A DNA stretch of 64,000 nt. Origin: Dioscorea cayenensis subsp. rotundata. Taxonomy: Eukaryota; Streptophyta; Magnoliopsida; Dioscoreales; Dioscoreaceae. The stretch lies in NCBI RefSeq assembly GCF_009730915.1, contig NC_052475.1:26659016-26723015 (forward strand), read 5' to 3'. The position numbers and the translations under genes are program-made. The notes beneath the pieces were generated by a model. That model saw nothing but the letters and a program-made list of their open reading frames with translations, was not told the origin of the DNA and did not search any database. The stretch's first letter is position 1. Every line of letters begins with the position of its first letter. Positions 6,663-46,113 of the stretch are shown piece by piece.

Positions 6663-7514
6663 TTATGAATTCCTACTCATGGCTGAAGCATTGCCCTCGC
6701 AAAAGCTAGCCGAGCTTAAACCACCTTTTCCTTGAAAATGCCATAGGTTTCCTTTGGATGAAACCAGATTTTCTTGACAAAGAAACTCCCTTGAATACCA
6801 CTTCTCAATCATATGGTTTGTATCATGAACAAAAACATCTGTTGAATTTCCAGATCTAGCAAGCATACCTGCTGTGTATATTGCTCTCATTCTTCCTGGT
6901 GCCTCTGGCTGGTCTCCTCTTGGTCCATCAATCACCACCACATCCCATCTTCTCCTGTATATTTCATTTGGCAAGTTAGTCAGTGCTAGCTTGCATTGTG
7001 ATTCACGAAGTTTTCTGGCCTTTGGTTTGCACTCAGGGTGTTCTCTAGCATGCTTAAGCAGCTCAAATGCTTCACTTGCTTTATCCTGGTACTCCACACT
7101 GTAGACTTGTACAGCATTGGTTTTCAGGGTTCGGTTTCTGAGTTTTTGAGCATCATCTTCAAGGAAGATAGTGGTGCCTCCTTTGTTTAGCTTGGAAATG
7201 TCAAGGAGTTGAGCTTTTAGTCCAAATATGAGGAGGTTGCAAGGAGCTCTGTGTGAAATGACGTCTGAAATAAGATGATATTGTTTGTGGTTGAGGGGCT
7301 CTTCTTCAGAAGAGCTCCTATACTTTGCAAACCTTTGGGACATGTGTGGAATGCGGTCTGGCAATGTAGTGTTTTGATGCATCAGTGTGTTCAGAAGTGG
7401 TGGATGCTGAGAATAGGAGAAAATGTTGAGTGTGATTCTGAAGAGTCTGATGAGGCATACGGTTGAGAGAATGAAGAAGAGGGTTAGTATGAGATTCTTT
7501 GTGGGGATTTTCAT
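6663..7514 (-). CDS. IRX15-L: DUF579 protein, IRREGULAR XYLEM 15 / IRX15-like type
   Basis: Intronless, 283 residues. An N-terminal signal anchor (about residues 7-29, LILTLFFILSTVCLIRLF) indicates a type II Golgi membrane protein. The DUF579 domain spans about residues 75-260. It has HLISDVISHRAPCNLLIFGL, then TTIFLEDD, WDVVVIDGPRGD, EAPGRM, TDVFVHDTNHMIEKWYS and EFLCQENLVSSKGNLWHF. The block around IFGLKAQLLDISKLNKGG and the end pattern fit the IRX15/IRX15-L group rather than the xylan methyltransferase group, where the equivalent is FGLGHDSLMW. In Arabidopsis IRX15 and IRX15-L are needed for normal xylan chain length in secondary walls; their biochemical activity is not settled. Slightly shorter than the usual 310-320 residues. 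A second DUF579 gene lies 6.8 kb away on the same strand. The start is the first ATG before the membrane segment. Confidence 0.88.
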   Translation of the reverse strand: MKIPTKNLILTLFFILSTVCLIRLFRITLNIFSYSQHPPLLNTLMHQNTTLPDRIPHMSQRFAKYRSSSEEEPLNHKQYHLISDVISHRAPCNLLIFGLKAQLLDISKLNKGGTTIFLEDDAQKLRNRTLKTNAVQVYSVEYQDKASEAFELLKHAREHPECKPKARKLRESQCKLALTNLPNEIYRRRWDVVVIDGPRGDQPEAPGRMRAIYTAGMLARSGNSTDVFVHDTNHMIEKWYSREFLCQENLVSSKGNLWHFQGKGGLSSASFCEGNASAMSRNS

Positions 7515-10385
7515 GGCTCTCTGTTCCTAGTCCTAATGACTAATTGCTGATGGCTCCAAGGCTCCTTTATGTAATTGCTCTTGGCCAAGAAATATGGCCT
7601 TGTGATTCTCAGAAGAGATGGCAGGTGAGTTGATTATTTGTTCTTGTTCTGATTTTAAATTGGCCTAAGCTTTCTTGTGATCTAAGGAGGTGTTTTTTGT
7701 TGCTCTTTAAAGATTTCCCTTCATTGAAGGAATAAAACACAATAATTCTGAATTGTTTCTTAATCCTTATTGTATAACAGAAAAAATATTCAATTTTACT
7801 CAAGTTGTTTTCATGTTTGTTGCTCCATTTGAGTGACTTGGAAGACAATTGATTACATTTTTCTTTTTCTATAATTCTGTGGAGAAATTCAACTGATACC
7901 CATAGACAAGACAGGTGGTAGTTCTCATGGATCTAAAATTTATTAGTTGCTTTCCCTTTGATAACAAACATTCCAACCTCTCCAGCCCATCTATGATTAA
8001 GAATTATTAAGCATGGTGTGACTATATTCTAGTTGTACAGTTGATCAAGAAGGCCCTAATTTTCATTGAAAGTGACACCCTTGTATATAATTGGTAAGGA
8101 CAGGCCCTATGATATCTTCATTTATACTCATTCTGACCATGAATTTTAATTATTCAGATATAATGCATTGATGCTTACTGGAAACCTAATTCTAATGAGA
8201 TTGCCAGGCCAACCAAATGGTTGTTTGTGCAAAATATTGTTAACGAAGGGAGGTTGAAACTGGTCAATGATTTCTAGAATAGTACCCTCACACCTTCCCT
8301 AAGAAGGTTCAAGGTTCTTTTTACCTTTATGCTCCTCAGTCCTTATTGCCCTAGTTTTGCAGTATCACTAAATCATTCCCTTCTATATTGCCAAATTTCA
8401 ATGGAAAATCTCTGCGAATTTTAAAATTTCTAATTAGTACCATAATTATCTTCACTTTCTTGTTTTTGGCACTTTTTGCAATCCAAATATATAGAAGCAT
8501 TGTGTATATTTTTGCTGTGAAGTAATGGTAGTCTCCACTGATGGATCATCTCTAGATCCATATCTAGAAAGGTCTATGGAGAAAATTGCAAGTGTGTGTA
8601 TATATATATATATATATTTGTATTTTAATGCTTTTTTCTCTCTGTTTCTTCAGGTTTTCCATCCTGTTGAATAATGTTTCAAATTGAGGTAAAAATTGCT
8701 GCTCTTAACTTTTTTCAGCCTATAGAACAAAATTTTAACTTATCCCTTGAATAGCTAAAAATAGTTAGAACGGTCATTCAATAGTTAACTGCAAGTCTTG
8801 TTTTATTTTTCGTGTGTTCTAGTATGCTTCCTATCTGAAACTGCAGGTTAACATTGTTTTCATCTACACAAGTCACTGCAATTCACCAAGTGGTGGAAAA
8901 TTATTGTTTTGCAGTGATTTCCGACAAGTGAAAAGGTTATCCATAGTCTAACACTATCATTCCATAACCTTAACTCTTGTTTGCTTGCACATTCACTTTG
9001 ACTCTTTGCAACAGCCCATCTGCACAACTTGTTCCTGGCTATAATGTTGATTTCTTGATTGCAAGTAGAAGGCACTGAGAAGTTACTATGTATTACCCTG
9101 CATTCCTAAATGCTTGATGTTGCTCTTCATTCACTGCTAGCAATCATCAACTTAATTCTTGCATCACAAATTAATCCTTTTCCCCTTGTGAGACCCGACA
9201 TTCTTTAATTAAGGGATAGCAACCAATCACTGACCTTTTCCTATTTTAAGATCTAATCAGATTGGTTGAGTATAAACCATCTAAATCTTAATTTGGAATA
9301 GTTTTAGTTGTTGAGATCATATTTACTAAAAACTCTTTTTTTTCAGCAATTGTCTATTGTTTGTTTTTTTACTTTCTGTCAAGGTTGTTTGTTAGTATAA
9401 AAGTTGCTGATAATCCAATCAATAGGGCATACTCAACCCTCCATTTTGAATAATGTTCCATAGACAGAACGTTGTCTTTTTGGCGGGTCATGGTATAGGC
9501 TAACATCTTAATCTTAATTCGTTTTCTCTTCTGAAACCGTTTCATTTGCCAAACAAGAGGTGTCTTCCTTTAACATCTTGACAAATACCTCTCTATCTTT
9601 TGTTTAGGAGAGTAGAAGAATATCTGCATGAGAATTCAAGTTTAAGTTTAACAAGGTAAATCAATTATTCAATCAATCCCTCTTTCATTGCTGTTCTGTT
9701 TCTGAATTTAGACAGTTTCACTGCTAATGCATTGACAAATTAATTTGTCTCACAAAAAATGCAAACTTATCCATTCAAGAATTCTGCTTTACCGATGTCT
9801 TGCGAACAATCTCAAGCAAAAGATCAAACAGTATGCAAATGAAGGTAAATCAATCTTCCTTCTTGAATTATTGTTCTGTTCAAGAATATATAACAGCATT
9901 GCATGGTCTTGATTTCAGATGCCTCATTGATCTACTACAAGCCATCAATATCTCCAAAGAAAGGTAGGTGAAAATCTATCAAGAAAACTCTAGAGTATAG
10001 CTCATCCAGGTAAGAATCCTACATTTCATGAAACTTTGTTCCAATACCAAAGATTTAATCTCAAAACTGGTCGAGTTCTCAACCACTATGGATTAACAGC
10101 AGATGAATGATAACATGGTAGTATTTCACTACAAATTATAAGGATGAACTGTTGCTGCTAATAGGTATGACTACTTAGTATTATGACGTGCAGACTGTGT
10201 AAAGCAAATTTATTAGGATTCAAAAGAGTGATACAAGCGCCATGAACATTGGTTAAATTTCAGGATCAAATGTGAGAAGCACAAGGTTATAAGGAGTATT
10301 CAATGCAACATATTTTAGAGGTACGGTGGAATTAATAACATGTCCTTTGGCGCTGTGCCGGCTTCCAGGACTGCATGCCTTTCGG
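7515..10385. other. Intergenic region, perhaps holding a spliced non-coding transcript
   Basis: No coding sequence can be supported. Between about 9600 and 10390 several acceptor- and donor-like sites frame short stretches (an AG at about 9919 followed by AGAAAGGTAGGTG near 9965; GGTAAGTGG near 10384), which hints at a spliced non-coding RNA or a decayed gene. A short (AT)n microsatellite lies near 8597-8618. Confidence 0.25.
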
Positions 10386-14274: not shown

Positions 14275-15087
14275 TCAACAAAACTGGGTGGCAGAGGTAT
14301 GGTTCTTAGCCGGAGGGATTTTGAAATGCCAGATTCTTCCGGTGCCGCCGACCAAGTACTTCTTGCAAAGGAATTCCATGGCGAACGTCTTCTCGACCTT
14401 GCGATCGACGTCGTGAAGGAAGACATGGGTGTCACCGGGACGAGTCCTGGAGCGGGCCATCACGGCGGCGGACCAGATCGCTCCCATCCGGCCGGGTGCC
14501 TCGTTGAAGTAGCCTCGTGGAGCGTCAATCATGATCAAATCCCATTCGCGATCGTAGATCGAGCTTGGGAGGTCGGCGAGGGCCAACGGGCAGCGATGAT
14601 TGTCCTTGAGATAAGCGTGCGGAGGGAGGCATGAGGGCTCGGATTTGTAGCTCTGGAGGAGATGATCGGCGTCGGAGAGATGGGTGGGGTAACGGACGGT
14701 GTGGGCGGTGAGATCGGGGGCGGATTGGAGGACGGATTGGGTCCATTTGGGGTCTTCTTCGAGAAAGACAGTGGTGCCGGAGGGGTTGAAGGAGGTCCAC
14801 ATGATGGAGTCATGGCCGAGGCCGAAGACGAGGAAGTTGCAGGGAGAGATGGATCGAAGGACGTCGAAGGAGAGACGGATCTCGGAGAGTGATTGTTGGG
14901 GAACGATTGAGGATGTGGCGTAGTGGAGGATGGCTGGACGGAGATCGGAGCTAGCGGGAGGGATGGGGCAGAGTGATGGGATTGAAGGGCGGAGGACGGT
15001 GGAGATCATCATGGCGCCGCAGATGAGGAACGCCGCCGTGAGGAGGATGAACCATGGCCGTTCCGGGAACGACCTCATCATCACCAT
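14275..15087 (-). CDS. GXM: DUF579 protein, glucuronoxylan 4-O-methyltransferase (GXM/GXMT) type
   Basis: Intronless, 270 residues. Residues 12-33 (FILLTAAFLICGAMMISTVL) form the Golgi signal anchor of a type II membrane protein. The DUF579 domain follows: AILHYATSSIVPQQSLSEI, the SAM-binding-type block PCNFLVFGLGHDSIMW, TTVFLEEDPKW, CPLALADLPSSIYDREWDL, IMIDAPRGYFNEAPGRM, HVFLHDVDRKVEKTF and EFLCKKYLVGGTGRIWHF. FGLGHDS.MW and the D-A-P-x-G-Y block distinguish the GXM/GXMT group, which transfers a methyl group from S-adenosylmethionine to O-4 of glucuronic acid side chains on xylan, from the IRX15 group found at 6663-7514. GC content is far higher than the surroundings, which is why its antisense strand is also open over long stretches. 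Confidence 0.9.
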   Translation of the reverse strand: MVMMRSFPERPWFILLTAAFLICGAMMISTVLRPSIPSLCPIPPASSDLRPAILHYATSSIVPQQSLSEIRLSFDVLRSISPCNFLVFGLGHDSIMWTSFNPSGTTVFLEEDPKWTQSVLQSAPDLTAHTVRYPTHLSDADHLLQSYKSEPSCLPPHAYLKDNHRCPLALADLPSSIYDREWDLIMIDAPRGYFNEAPGRMGAIWSAAVMARSRTRPGDTHVFLHDVDRKVEKTFAMEFLCKKYLVGGTGRIWHFKIPPAKNHTSATQFC

Positions 15088-15172
15088 CGCCGGCGATGGA
15101 TTCCGGGATTCTTTGCTTCAACTCGGTACGTCTCGTTGCTCTTCTCTCTTTCGCTTGCCTTTTTTTTAAAAA

Positions 15173-40484: not shown

Positions 40485-40750
40485 GAGAACCCATCATCTA
40501 GGGACGTCCCTAGATTTCAAATCTCAAGGGATGTCCCATAGAAATACTGCATCGGATAATCGGCGACTCTTGCTCATTATGAAAAACGATGAAAACGCGT
40601 TCTACGGTGTTATCTGATGATCGTGAAACAGTAAAAAGTGTACAGATGTTTATATAATCAATCAGCCCATGGATGATGATCCAGCCAAACTAGATTTAAA
40701 AACATCCCTAGATTTAAATCCCAGGGGACGTCCCTAGATGATGTTTTCCC
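40485..40750. mobile_element. MITE with terminal inverted repeats inserted in an (AT)n tract
   Basis: The left end GAGAACCCATCATCTAGGGA and the right end read backwards, GGGAAAACATCATCTAGGGA, share CATCATCTAGGGACGTCCC and then ATTT.AAATC. The element is 266 bp and non-coding. Both flanks are pure ATATATATA, which is compatible with a 9-bp duplication but uninformative. Confidence 0.75.
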
Positions 40751-41361: not shown

Positions 41362-44300
41362 ATGAAGGTGATCACCAAACTCTCTTTCTTTCTTTCTTTC
41401 TTTTTTACATTACAACAACAACAACAACTACTACTAATAATAATAACATTAATAATAATACTTCTCTTGTTTATATTATCATTATATCATTGCCATTGAT
41501 ATATATATATATATATATATGTTTATTTGCTTATAGCTTCTTGGTTGGATGCACCGGAAATTTCGGCAAAACAGTGGCGACATGTTCAAAGATTTCGCTT
41601 CCGGTGAGCTTTATATATATATATATATATTCAGTTGGTTGACATAGTGATTTTACTTAAAAATTTTAAATATGATTAAAAAAATCACATGCAAAGACCT
41701 CATCCCAAGACAAACATGTGGTGGATTCAGTGGTACCACTTTAAGCGGGATAATGTGAAAAGTGTTAGGGCGCATGATAGTGTTGAGGGGATAAGTGTTT
41801 GCTAAAATGCGCTGACTGTCTCTTTTACAGCTCAAGCTTGTAACTGTCTTCCCGGGCCGTGCGCCTCTTGATTACAAGGCCCGGCCGCCGGCGAGGGATC
41901 TTGGCCTCCTGGAGGCCGTGGGAGAGGATGAAGGGGAGCTCTTCGACTCTGGTGCTGTGCTGTTCGGTGGATTCCTCACCATTGGAACGCTTGGATCCGC
42001 TCCGATTCCTGAGAACTCGTCGGGATCGGGGGAGGATGAGGATGAAGAGATCCCTAATGGGATGGCTACGCCGACGTTTGGGGTTCCGTCGGTGGACGCG
42101 ATTGCTGAGAAGGGAGCGGAGGCGACGACGGAGACGGATCTGATGGTGGTCAGCGCGGAGATTGAGAAGGTTCTGGCGGCGGAGGCGGAGAAGGGGGTTA
42201 ACGGCGGTGGAGCGGCACGGATCTCGTCGGCGAGGGCGAGCTATGCCAGTGGGAAGTCGGTGGCGGAGGCGTACCCTTTGCAGGGGTACTTGTTTGGATC
42301 GCCGATCGAGGTGGCGGAGACGAGGAGGGAGAGGAGGGCTTCGTTGGGGGAGCTGTTTTTGAAGACTAGGATGGAGGAGGAGACGGGTCCCGGCGGAGAG
42401 GGGAGAGCGGCGGCAACGGCGTCCGCGGCCGCTGGGAAGAAGGCGGTGAAGCGGCGCTCTGCAGCAAAGGCCTCGGATTTGGGTGGCGCTGCCGATGGAT
42501 CCTCGCCGGCGGAAACCAAATTCCACAAGGTATGTTTTGTTTTTGTTTTTCATTTACACCCCCGAAAACTATTAGTATTTTTAAGAGCTTTTGTTCTCAG
42601 AAATTTGGATCTTTGATTCTTTTTCAAGTGCAAAAACTTCTTAGGCTATCAAATGATTGAACTTCGAAATAAAATAAAAAAAGGAAAAGAATAAAATACT
42701 GCTTTTTTTTTTAACGACAAATATATAATTCAAATCGTCCGGATCTGTTTTTTTTTCCTTTATTTTTAGCAGATGAAGTATATGTTTGATTCTGATTTTT
42801 GAAATAATAGAAATCATGTTTTGTTCGTAAAAATCCAAACTTTATACATTTGGACCAAAGTGTGAGATTTTATATTAAGCTTCAAGGCTAGTGTGCAATT
42901 AACTTAACTATTATGTGATTTATTTCTGAGGAACATCCTTCAAACTTAATAAAAATACCAATTTTCTTGTTTTATGTCTTCCTAGTGGAAATGTGTTAGC
43001 AAATATATCTCTTTTCACAGTACTTCCTTCAAATCATGACTTTGTTGTTGGTGAGATGTTTGGACGGTAGAATTTGGAAATATGTAGCTCTAAATCCTGA
43101 TTAAGTGTTAAAATGTGAAATTTTATCATTAGCTTCAATTGTGAGAAAAAAATTCATTATAAGCACACACTATTTTGGGTTGTTCTAATAACTGATTATA
43201 GATTGAACTCAATTCTAAATTACCCCAAACTCTTGTAAGTGTGGGTTTAAGGGCAACTACCCATCCCTTTCCATATATCCATTAGAAGGTACTTGCCATA
43301 GCATCTCTTTCATATTGAGCATCAATCTTAGTGCTATGTTGCATGGCAAACATCTTGTACTTGTTTGGCTCAATTGATACCTTACCATTGATGGAGAAAC
43401 TTTGAGAATTCCTTTCCATAAAGTCATGCACTCATGCTTGGCTGTTCCCTTATCTCGGGAAGTGCTAGCCCACCATGGCCTCCATTTATGCCATCTTCTG
43501 CGGGCCCATCCATTTGAAGTATCTGCATCATTGTTCTGCTTGTACTGATTGGGATGATGGGTGAATTTTGGCAGGATTTTTTCTATTTGTTGGTGCTATT
43601 GCACCATAGCAAATAATCACATGTCACTAGATTGAAGGATCTGATCATTTGTTTTTTATTGCTTGGATTTTTTTCTTTCTGACTTTTATCAGTTCACTGT
43701 TACTATGTTCAATTCATAGCTCAGATAATTTGTTGAGAAATTCTTGGATGAAATGCCATCAGTAGTCGAGATAATCACATTTTGATATATTAAACCTCAT
43801 TTGTTTTGTTCTATCTAGTTGTATTCTTTTTGCTCTACTTGTTTCACCATTATTATGTCTCATTCCTTAGTTCTACCACATCTTTAGTATTTGTTTGGAG
43901 ATTCTTGAATGAGTGAATTGTCATTGATACTCTAAAAAGATAATCAGAAGGTAAATCAATGAAACGTCTTAGACACTATAGAGATATTCACTTTCACCTT
44001 ATCTAACATAATTTTATGTTTTTTCTTTTCTCGTTGCATTCTTATTGGCTTTACTTGTTTCACCATTAGATGGGTGAAATGTCACTAATACTCCAGAGGT
44101 TGATAAGTTAAATGAATGAATGTCGAATTTCACTGTTGAGATGTTCACTTTCACCTTATCAAACCTAATTAATTTTATTTTTTTCTCAGTTGGAATTTTT
44201 CTTTTTTCATATTACCATGTTCAGTTCATAGCTTATTCATCAGCATTTTATTATCTCTCTGGGAATATTTGGTGTCGGATGAGTGATTCAGCATTGATAC

Positions 44301-44891
44301 TCTAAAGGATAAGAATGTGAATGAGTTGATGAATGAACAAATGCATGTGGATATAATGACACTGTTGAGCTTTATTTATGAATTATGATTGACATCTTTC
44401 CAGCCTCATCATGAATTGTATGACTTCTGCATTGCAGATCCTGCAGATATTCCACAGGAAGGTTCACCCAGAGAGCACATTGACCACAAAGAAATCTTTC
44501 AAGGCCATCAAGCAAGACAGTAGGGAAAATTCATCCCGTGACGGCGGCGATCACTCTGGTGTCATCAATGTGGATCACACACTAACTGATTCAAAAAGAG
44601 CTTGTAAAAGAAGGGCCATCCCATGCTTCAAGTGTGACTCAAGCAGTCCATCTCTTATGGTGGATGGCAATGATCCGAATGGGACTCGCGAGTATTGGAT
44701 CAAGACCGACGCAGATTGTAAGTTTTCATTCACTACAACTTCCTTTTTTTTTTTTTCAAAACATGAGTCTTGATTTGGATGGTTTATTCATGATCTTGTT
44801 CAGATTGAATTTTTCTTTTCTAATTTATATTGAAAATTTTTTGAGACTTTTGATTCTCATTGGCAATGTAGACTTGGTGTTGGAGCTGTAG
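41362..44891 (+). CDS. LAZY1: LAZY1 (IGT family) shoot gravitropism protein, five exons; frame conflict at start of exon 3
   Basis: Exons: 41362-41367 (ATGAAG), 41537-41603, 41831-42529, 44438-44717, 44872-44891. This is the LAZY1 gene plan, with a two-codon first exon, a 1.9-kb third intron and a tiny last exon. Conserved blocks in order: MKLLGWMHRKFRQNSGDMF, ACNCLPG, GGFLTIGTLG, ETDLMVVSAEIEKVLAAEA, YPLQGYLFGSPIEV, FHKILQIFHRKVHPES, and the C-terminus YWIKTDADYLVLEL. LAZY1 links statolith sedimentation to lateral auxin flow and sets shoot, branch or tiller angle. The exons sum to 1072 nt, not a multiple of three. After ACNCLPGPCAS the frame set by exons 1-2 meets TGA (41869-41871), while the continuation LDYKARPPARDL lies in the next frame. 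Loss of one CT from CTCTCT at 41866, or one extra base, would explain it. As written the product stops after about 38 residues. Confidence 0.9.
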
Positions 44892-46113
44892 AAGGAGAAA
44901 GAGCTCTCTGCATGGAACTGAAAAGACAAGAAGGATTATAGCCCGAGTGATATGAGCATGAATAAGTATTGTGTTTAGTGTGCTAGTATTACTTAAAGAG
45001 GGCTAGTTAAATACTTATTAATGAATGATATTTTGCCCTCTAATGTGGTTGCAATAAAAATGAAAACCGCTTCTCTCTATGAAATGCTACTTTGGCTACT
45101 AAGGGTTCCTTCAATTCTAGTGATGCCTTCTCTTGCTTGTGGATGGTGTTACATAAGCGTGGCTTTGTATTTTGTGAGCTTACTTTGTTCAATTATATTA
45201 CCCAATTGGTTTGAAATTATTTTCATATTTATTTGTTTACCTCTTAGCCTATTCACGATGTTGTTAATTTTGTGCATACGCTTCACATTAGTGCACATTT
45301 GTGATTATTAATCTTAAACGGGGATGTTTATCGTCTAATGTGTAAAAAAAATGCTAGATGTTTATCGTCTAATGTGTAAAAAAAATGCTAGAGTATGGGA
45401 TGATCTCGAGAGGGTTTATTCTTTATATTTTATTTTATTTTTTAAAATAAATTTCTCATTTGACAAGAGAGTTATATAGTATCACTAAAAAATAATTACT
45501 TAAATATTTTAAATAAAAATAATTTTTTAGTTTCTATTTTTCCATTTTTTTAAAAAAATCTCAAATGAAAGTTCGGAATTCTTTACATGTAAGGTTTATT
45601 AAACAAGCCAAATAGCCAATCCATTCATTAATAGCTTGAGTTTGATTTGCTAAAACTCATTTGAGTGATAAATTAGTTGAACTTGGGTCATCATTTTAGG
45701 TTTAATTAAGTCAGTCAAAATTAAACAGACCCAACTCATTTAACAATTTATACATATATTAGTCTATTGTATGTTGTATAATAATTGTAAAATATTTTAT
45801 ATTTATTAATAGTTTATATATAATAATAAATTTTATTTGAAAAAGAAAAACCCAATTATAGGTTTTGAGTTCATTGGAAAAAAAAAGTTCATTTGCAAAT
45901 TTTATTTGTAGTAAGGATACAAGGACCTTCACAAAATTTTCTCATTTATTTTTCTTTAAAAAAAGAAGAGAAAAGAAAATAGATAGCTAGCTCCGCAAAC
46001 GAGTCGCATGCGTTATAATCGGATCGGATCTATTTGGCAAAAAGATCCGACCCGTTTGTAGTTGAAGAGCTCTTAGCCTGAAGAACTCCACAACCACCCT
46101 CAGTTCATCCCCA
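44892..46113. other. LAZY1 3' flank and ABCI11 promoter region
   Basis: AT-rich. It holds a 34-bp tandem duplication at 45323-45390 and no supported gene. Confidence 0.5.
45323..45390 (+). repeat. Perfect 34-bp tandem duplication
   Basis: GATGTTTATCGTCTAATGTG followed by TAAAAAAAATGCTA occurs twice without a mismatch, at 45323 and 45357. It is therefore very recent. Confidence 0.9.

Follow-up and report, generated by a model that had tools for sequence, protein, structure and literature searches.

Loss of LAZY1 leads to wide or prostrate shoots, according to PMC12150781 and PMC10165344, and rice lazy1 mutants are cited in the former as showing reduced circumnutation; further LAZY1 literature includes PMC3909067 (maize), PMC13128126, and PMC9010478. 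The conserved regions of LAZY1 are described in PMC7142156 and PMC10165344, which also describe the C-terminal block that is conserved in the LAZY clade and missing from the TAC1 clade. A search of the paper library for the motif letters of outside orthologs returned no paper. The motif letters used for identification, including the GWMHRKF-type block, are those of the rice and maize LAZY1 proteins. The yam gene described below resembles rice and maize LAZY1, members of the IGT/LAZY family, in its N-terminal MKLLGWMHRK block, its CNC motif, its IGTLG motif, and its C-terminal LVLEL block, and differs from them in that its assembled frame is interrupted at codon 38.

The LAZY1 gene of the window and its paralog

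The window is a stretch of 64,000 nucleotides of Dioscorea cayenensis subsp. rotundata DNA. Its LAZY1 gene is made up of the following features.

41362-41367, plus strand: LAZY1 exon 1, coding part (6 nt, encoding MK only; a coding exon of 6 nt is likewise found in the paralog L003)
41537-41603, plus strand: LAZY1 exon 2 (67 nt, LLGWMHRKF... in the ATG frame; length not a multiple of three)
41831-42529, plus strand: LAZY1 exon 3 (699 nt; ATG frame at the start, with the CNC motif, then the next frame, with IGTLG)
41848-41868, plus strand: LAZY1 frame-change interval (net gain of one base or loss of two bases)
41869-41871, plus strand: TGA stop of the LAZY1 ATG frame (codon 38)
44438-44717, plus strand: LAZY1 exon 4 (280 nt, shifted frame open)
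44872-44891, plus strand: LAZY1 exon 5 (20 nt, C-terminal LVLEL and stop, shifted frame)

The five coding exons lie between 41362 and 44891, every intron is bounded by GT...AG, and the coding lengths add up to 6+67+699+280+20 = 1072 nt, which leaves a remainder of 1 on division by three. The ATG frame runs for 37 codons, MKLLGWMHRKFRQNSGDMFKDFASAQACNCLPGPCAS, and includes the GWMHRKF block, encoded by exon 2, and the CNC motif before it meets the TGA at 41869-41871. Read in the +1 frame, the joined exons are free of stops from the second codon until 44889-44891; this frame carries the IGT motif (LTIGTLGS) in exon 3 and, across exons 4 and 5, the C-terminal block, ending in EYWIKTDADYLVLEL. Beyond the frame conflict, no further lesion was found across the 1072 nt, and exons 3 to 5 are open in the downstream frame. 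The identity of the gene, the conflict between the frames just after the CNC motif, the exon total, and the class of the change (two bases lost or one gained) all agree with the initial annotation, which also allowed for a consensus error. The one feature of a LAZY1 gene that the locus lacks is a single uninterrupted coding frame, and we attribute this to the assembly, as discussed below. The peptide of exon 3 had no match in Pfam-A up to E = 10; to our knowledge, no Pfam model covers this stretch, and the null result was therefore not counted against membership in the family.

A protein search of the yam's own genome recovered a second LAZY1 gene, L003, at G000:C10:20087216-20090425. The match was confined to residues 14-78 of the exon 3 query (219 residues), with 52% identity. 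L003 follows the same plan of five coding exons, with a shorter exon 3 (6/58/494/256/20 nt), and its 834 nt form one open frame ending in YLVLEL and a stop; its version of the N-terminal block is GWMHRKL. The distance from the CxC motif to IGTLG is 141 nt in L003 versus 142 nt in the window gene. Since the downstream frame of the window gene bears IGTLG and the C-terminal block, and since L003 shares its plan and spacing, the frame conflict is present in the assembled sequence and is not a product of chance. A weaker match on C7 (L004, 45% identity, E 0.3) was dropped as unrelated.

Position and class of the frame change

The break fits anywhere in 41848-41869, i.e., between the CNC codons, which end at 41847, and the TGA. 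Within this interval, CCCGGG encodes Pro-Gly whichever of the two frames is read, and the sequence by itself therefore does not pin down the position of the break. In the protein alignment with the paralog, the best placement is 41850-41859, where the score is flat, and placement at 41868 costs 2 points for a gain of one base and 7 points for a loss of two. Codon usage along the gene did not decide the position, and the spacing in rice LAZY1 would also favour the earlier spot. The loss of a CT from a CTCTT run, which had been proposed at the outset, is thus possible within the interval, though it is neither established nor favoured, given that the alignment is best at 41850-41859. The site is the GC-rich start of exon 3 and not a long homopolymer; the DNA fold of the 61 nt around it beats most shuffled sequences, 5 of 200 being at least as good, a result from which we draw no conclusion.

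As for the class, the paralog alignment scored 392 for a two-base loss versus 382 for a one-base gain. This preference of 10 points amounts to about one gap penalty between proteins that differ in length, and it is no more than a weak hint that LAZY1 may differ from the other loci described below, where one-base gains are typical. To that extent, it speaks against a consensus error and for a real frameshift allele in the plant.

We also considered that the break might be real and tolerated, by skipping of exon 2, by use of other splice sites, or by +1 ribosomal slippage at TCT-TGA. Joining exon 1 directly to exon 3 does give a 1005-nt open frame ending in LVLEL and a stop; acceptors within exon 3 at 41925 and 41934 give open frames that retain GWMHRKF and IGTLG, and cryptic sites offer further open routes. 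However, a 67-nt exon rescues any change of this class by simple arithmetic, so the skip carries no evidence of design, the two acceptors are weak and have no pyrimidine tract, and the RNA fold around the stop is no better than that of shuffled sequences (z -0.14), which argues against slippage. The paralog, moreover, needs no such bypass. A tolerated break is rated as very improbable. Less probable still is the combination of a true frameshift allele with exon 2 skipping; the resulting LAZY1 protein would lack GWMHRKF and CNC but retain IGTLG as well as the C-terminal block, and this twining crop would have an intact second LAZY1 besides.

Frame breaks elsewhere in the assembly

Long-read assemblies are subject to indel errors, and we take the yam genome assembly to be the second, Nanopore-based assembly of TDr96_F1. 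For TDr96_F1 (D. rotundata), PMC5604175 gives a genome of 570 Mb by flow cytometry, a GC content of 35.83%, and over 1.4 million sites that are potentially heterozygous. The sp1 primers published there for D. rotundata each have a single match in the genome, at C11:242716-242736 (minus strand) and C11:241883-241907 (plus strand); they enclose 854 bp, which is the amplicon size given in the paper, and the contig has the same number as its pseudo-chromosome 11. The genome is thus that of D. rotundata or of a very close relative, which might share these primer sites. The likeness to long-read errors is that small indels in this assembly, mostly one-base gains in runs, break conserved coding frames; the difference is that LAZY1 is affected at one place only.

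GRAS genes, which are mostly intronless, served as a yardstick. After 63 matches had been merged by eye into 47 loci, 29 of the 47 were single uninterrupted stop-free matches, 10 were frame-changed where an intron would not fit or where the gaps did not exceed about 60 nt (L012, L035, L037, L038, L040, L041, L043, L044, L045, and L046), and 8 were gapped, carried multiple lesions, or were fragments. When the 10 frame-changed loci, i.e., L012 plus nine of 14 fetched regions, were aligned with frame shifts allowed, 13 changes were placed, of which 12 were of the +1 class found in LAZY1, or 10 of 12 if the two +1 changes lying 31 nt apart in L044 are read, as they equally well may be, as a single change of the opposite class. 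The other fetched regions stayed outside this alignment: L036 has a 158-nt gap in which an intron is possible, L042 has gaps of about 80 nt, L047 and L048 were likewise left aside, and L039, with its many lesions, was used in the copy comparison instead. L040 and L045 are copies of one GRAS gene broken at different places. Set against about 50 kb of coding sequence, the 13 changes (10 when L040 and L045 are excluded) correspond, very roughly, to one change per 4-5 kb. At that rate, chance alone would put a change into about one in every four or five genes of 1 kb.

Intact sequence was also common among PPR-DYW genes and within the window. From 150 scored DYW matches, 30 loci were fetched, and 20 of them were open across the full 1500 nt upstream. 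When the other 10 were aligned, frame changes appeared in six, nine of them in L058 alone, and none in L059, L061, L066, or L068; the remaining five frame-changed loci rest on weak homologs (L063, L065, L069, and L074, +1; L075, -1) and are not counted as proof. Four DYW matches listed as two adjoining pieces were fetched as well (L082-L085), and L084 was examined further. In the window itself, an open frame with a Pfam match was present in five of the eight other scanned stretches, including two parts of a COBRA-type gene, which indicates that errors are not everywhere in the assembly. Together with the intact GRAS and PPR-DYW loci and L003, these open stretches count against reading the LAZY1 conflict as an error.

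Near-identical copies allowed indels to be set against substitutions. Over the first ~1790 aligned columns of the PPR-DYW loci L058 and L062, there are 7 substitutions, and L058 carries 9 insertions that L062 lacks; eight are of 1 nt and one is of 2 nt, and 8 of the 9 lengthen a single-base run. By blastn, gap openings outnumbered mismatches in four of six near-identical pairs, three of which lie within one trio of copies of a single gene (L039, L040, and L045) and are not independent: L058/L062 (28 mismatches, 31 gap openings), L040/L045 (5 and 9), L039/L045 (7 and 23), and L039/L040 (9 and 25). Over a longer stretch at the same places as L045/L040, the pair L021/L024 gave 27 mismatches and 41 gap openings. 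The balance was milder in MAFFT alignments, with 7 substitutions and 8 gap events for L040/L045 and 20 and 18 for L039/L045. In the two other pairs, mismatches exceeded gap openings (L054/L057, 19 versus 10; L055/L084, 3 versus 1), which also weighs against the error reading, as does the class of the change in the last pair. There, the alignment of L084 (chromosome-size contig C19) with L055 (small contig C1614) spans 1752 columns and shows 3 substitutions and a single base that L084 lacks; this loss breaks the frame of L084 within the DYW domain and is of the class opposite to that of LAZY1, whereas the DYW frame of L055 is open (780 residues). Indel numbers on a par with substitution numbers in coding DNA point towards consensus errors. 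Some of the broken copies may nevertheless be real pseudogenes, which counts against the error reading, as does the divergence of L058 from L062 in the 3' flanks.

Two arrangements of these copies were observed in passing. The three near-identical GRAS copies L039, L040, and L045 lie on one contig (C15:1.09-1.31 Mb) and differ largely by indels; they are possibly an artificial duplication or unpolished haplotypes. A near-identical PPR locus of 3.5 kb is found twice on C8 (L080, 4973-8449; L081, 4645-8104), L058 lying within L080.

Origin of the conflict and its meaning for growth habit

Across the assembly, unrelated conserved genes thus often carried similar indels. Because these breaks in other coding loci are mostly of the class seen in LAZY1, and because LAZY1 is otherwise intact, the simplest explanation of the conflict is a consensus error in an otherwise ordinary conserved gene, to which we give a probability of roughly 0.84. 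The consensus would contain one surplus base, or lack two, at the GC-rich start of exon 3 (41848-41869), and the plant would probably carry an intact LAZY1 at this locus. That the particular change in LAZY1 is also an error is suggested by extension from the other loci.

A real, recent frameshift allele, perhaps heterozygous, appears unlikely, though it is considerably more plausible than a tolerated break. In its mRNA, codon 38 would be a stop that precedes two exon junctions; the transcript would likely undergo nonsense-mediated decay and would yield at most a 37-residue peptide; the paralog on C10 could then alone carry shoot gravitropism. The assembled sequence itself shows the conflict, the paralog alignment scores the two-base loss above the class that dominates elsewhere, and the intact paralog could buffer the loss. 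Yams are propagated clonally, which we also count in favour of a real allele. In addition, the weeping form of a birch cultivar has been suggested to stem from a premature stop codon in its LAZY1 homolog (cited in PMC12150781). Against this, unrelated genes of the assembly share breaks of mostly the same class, so the sequence alone weighs little. A DNA search of the genome (584,211,761 bases in 2249 contigs) with exon 3 of the window gene returned one match, exon 3 itself; the second haplotype copy that might have accompanied a heterozygous allele was not found among these contigs. Among the top-listed matches in open-licence papers, there was no report of a yam LAZY1 allele.

The suggestion that the lesion would matter for growth habit is weak, because the assembly breaks other frames and because an intact second LAZY1 exists. 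Indeed, given L003 on C10, even a true lesion in the window gene need not abolish LAZY1 function. The example also serves as a warning that frame conflicts in the yam assembly are not readable as broken genes without the reads. Were the lesion true, it would be a natural variant through which LAZY1 could be tested in a twining monocot, and both LAZY1 copies are useful in themselves for work on yam shoot architecture.

The surroundings of the gene hold a few further features. Some 610 nt before the ATG of LAZY1, 24-nt inverted repeats that are 92% complementary and 214 nt apart (40487-40748) look like a small MITE-type insertion, and a short tandem duplication of about 34 nt, seen by eye, lies downstream of the gene at 45325-45392. 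Elsewhere in the window, two open genes of the IRX15/GXM type (PF21729) are found on the minus strand at 6666-7523 and 14278-15117, about 7 kb apart.
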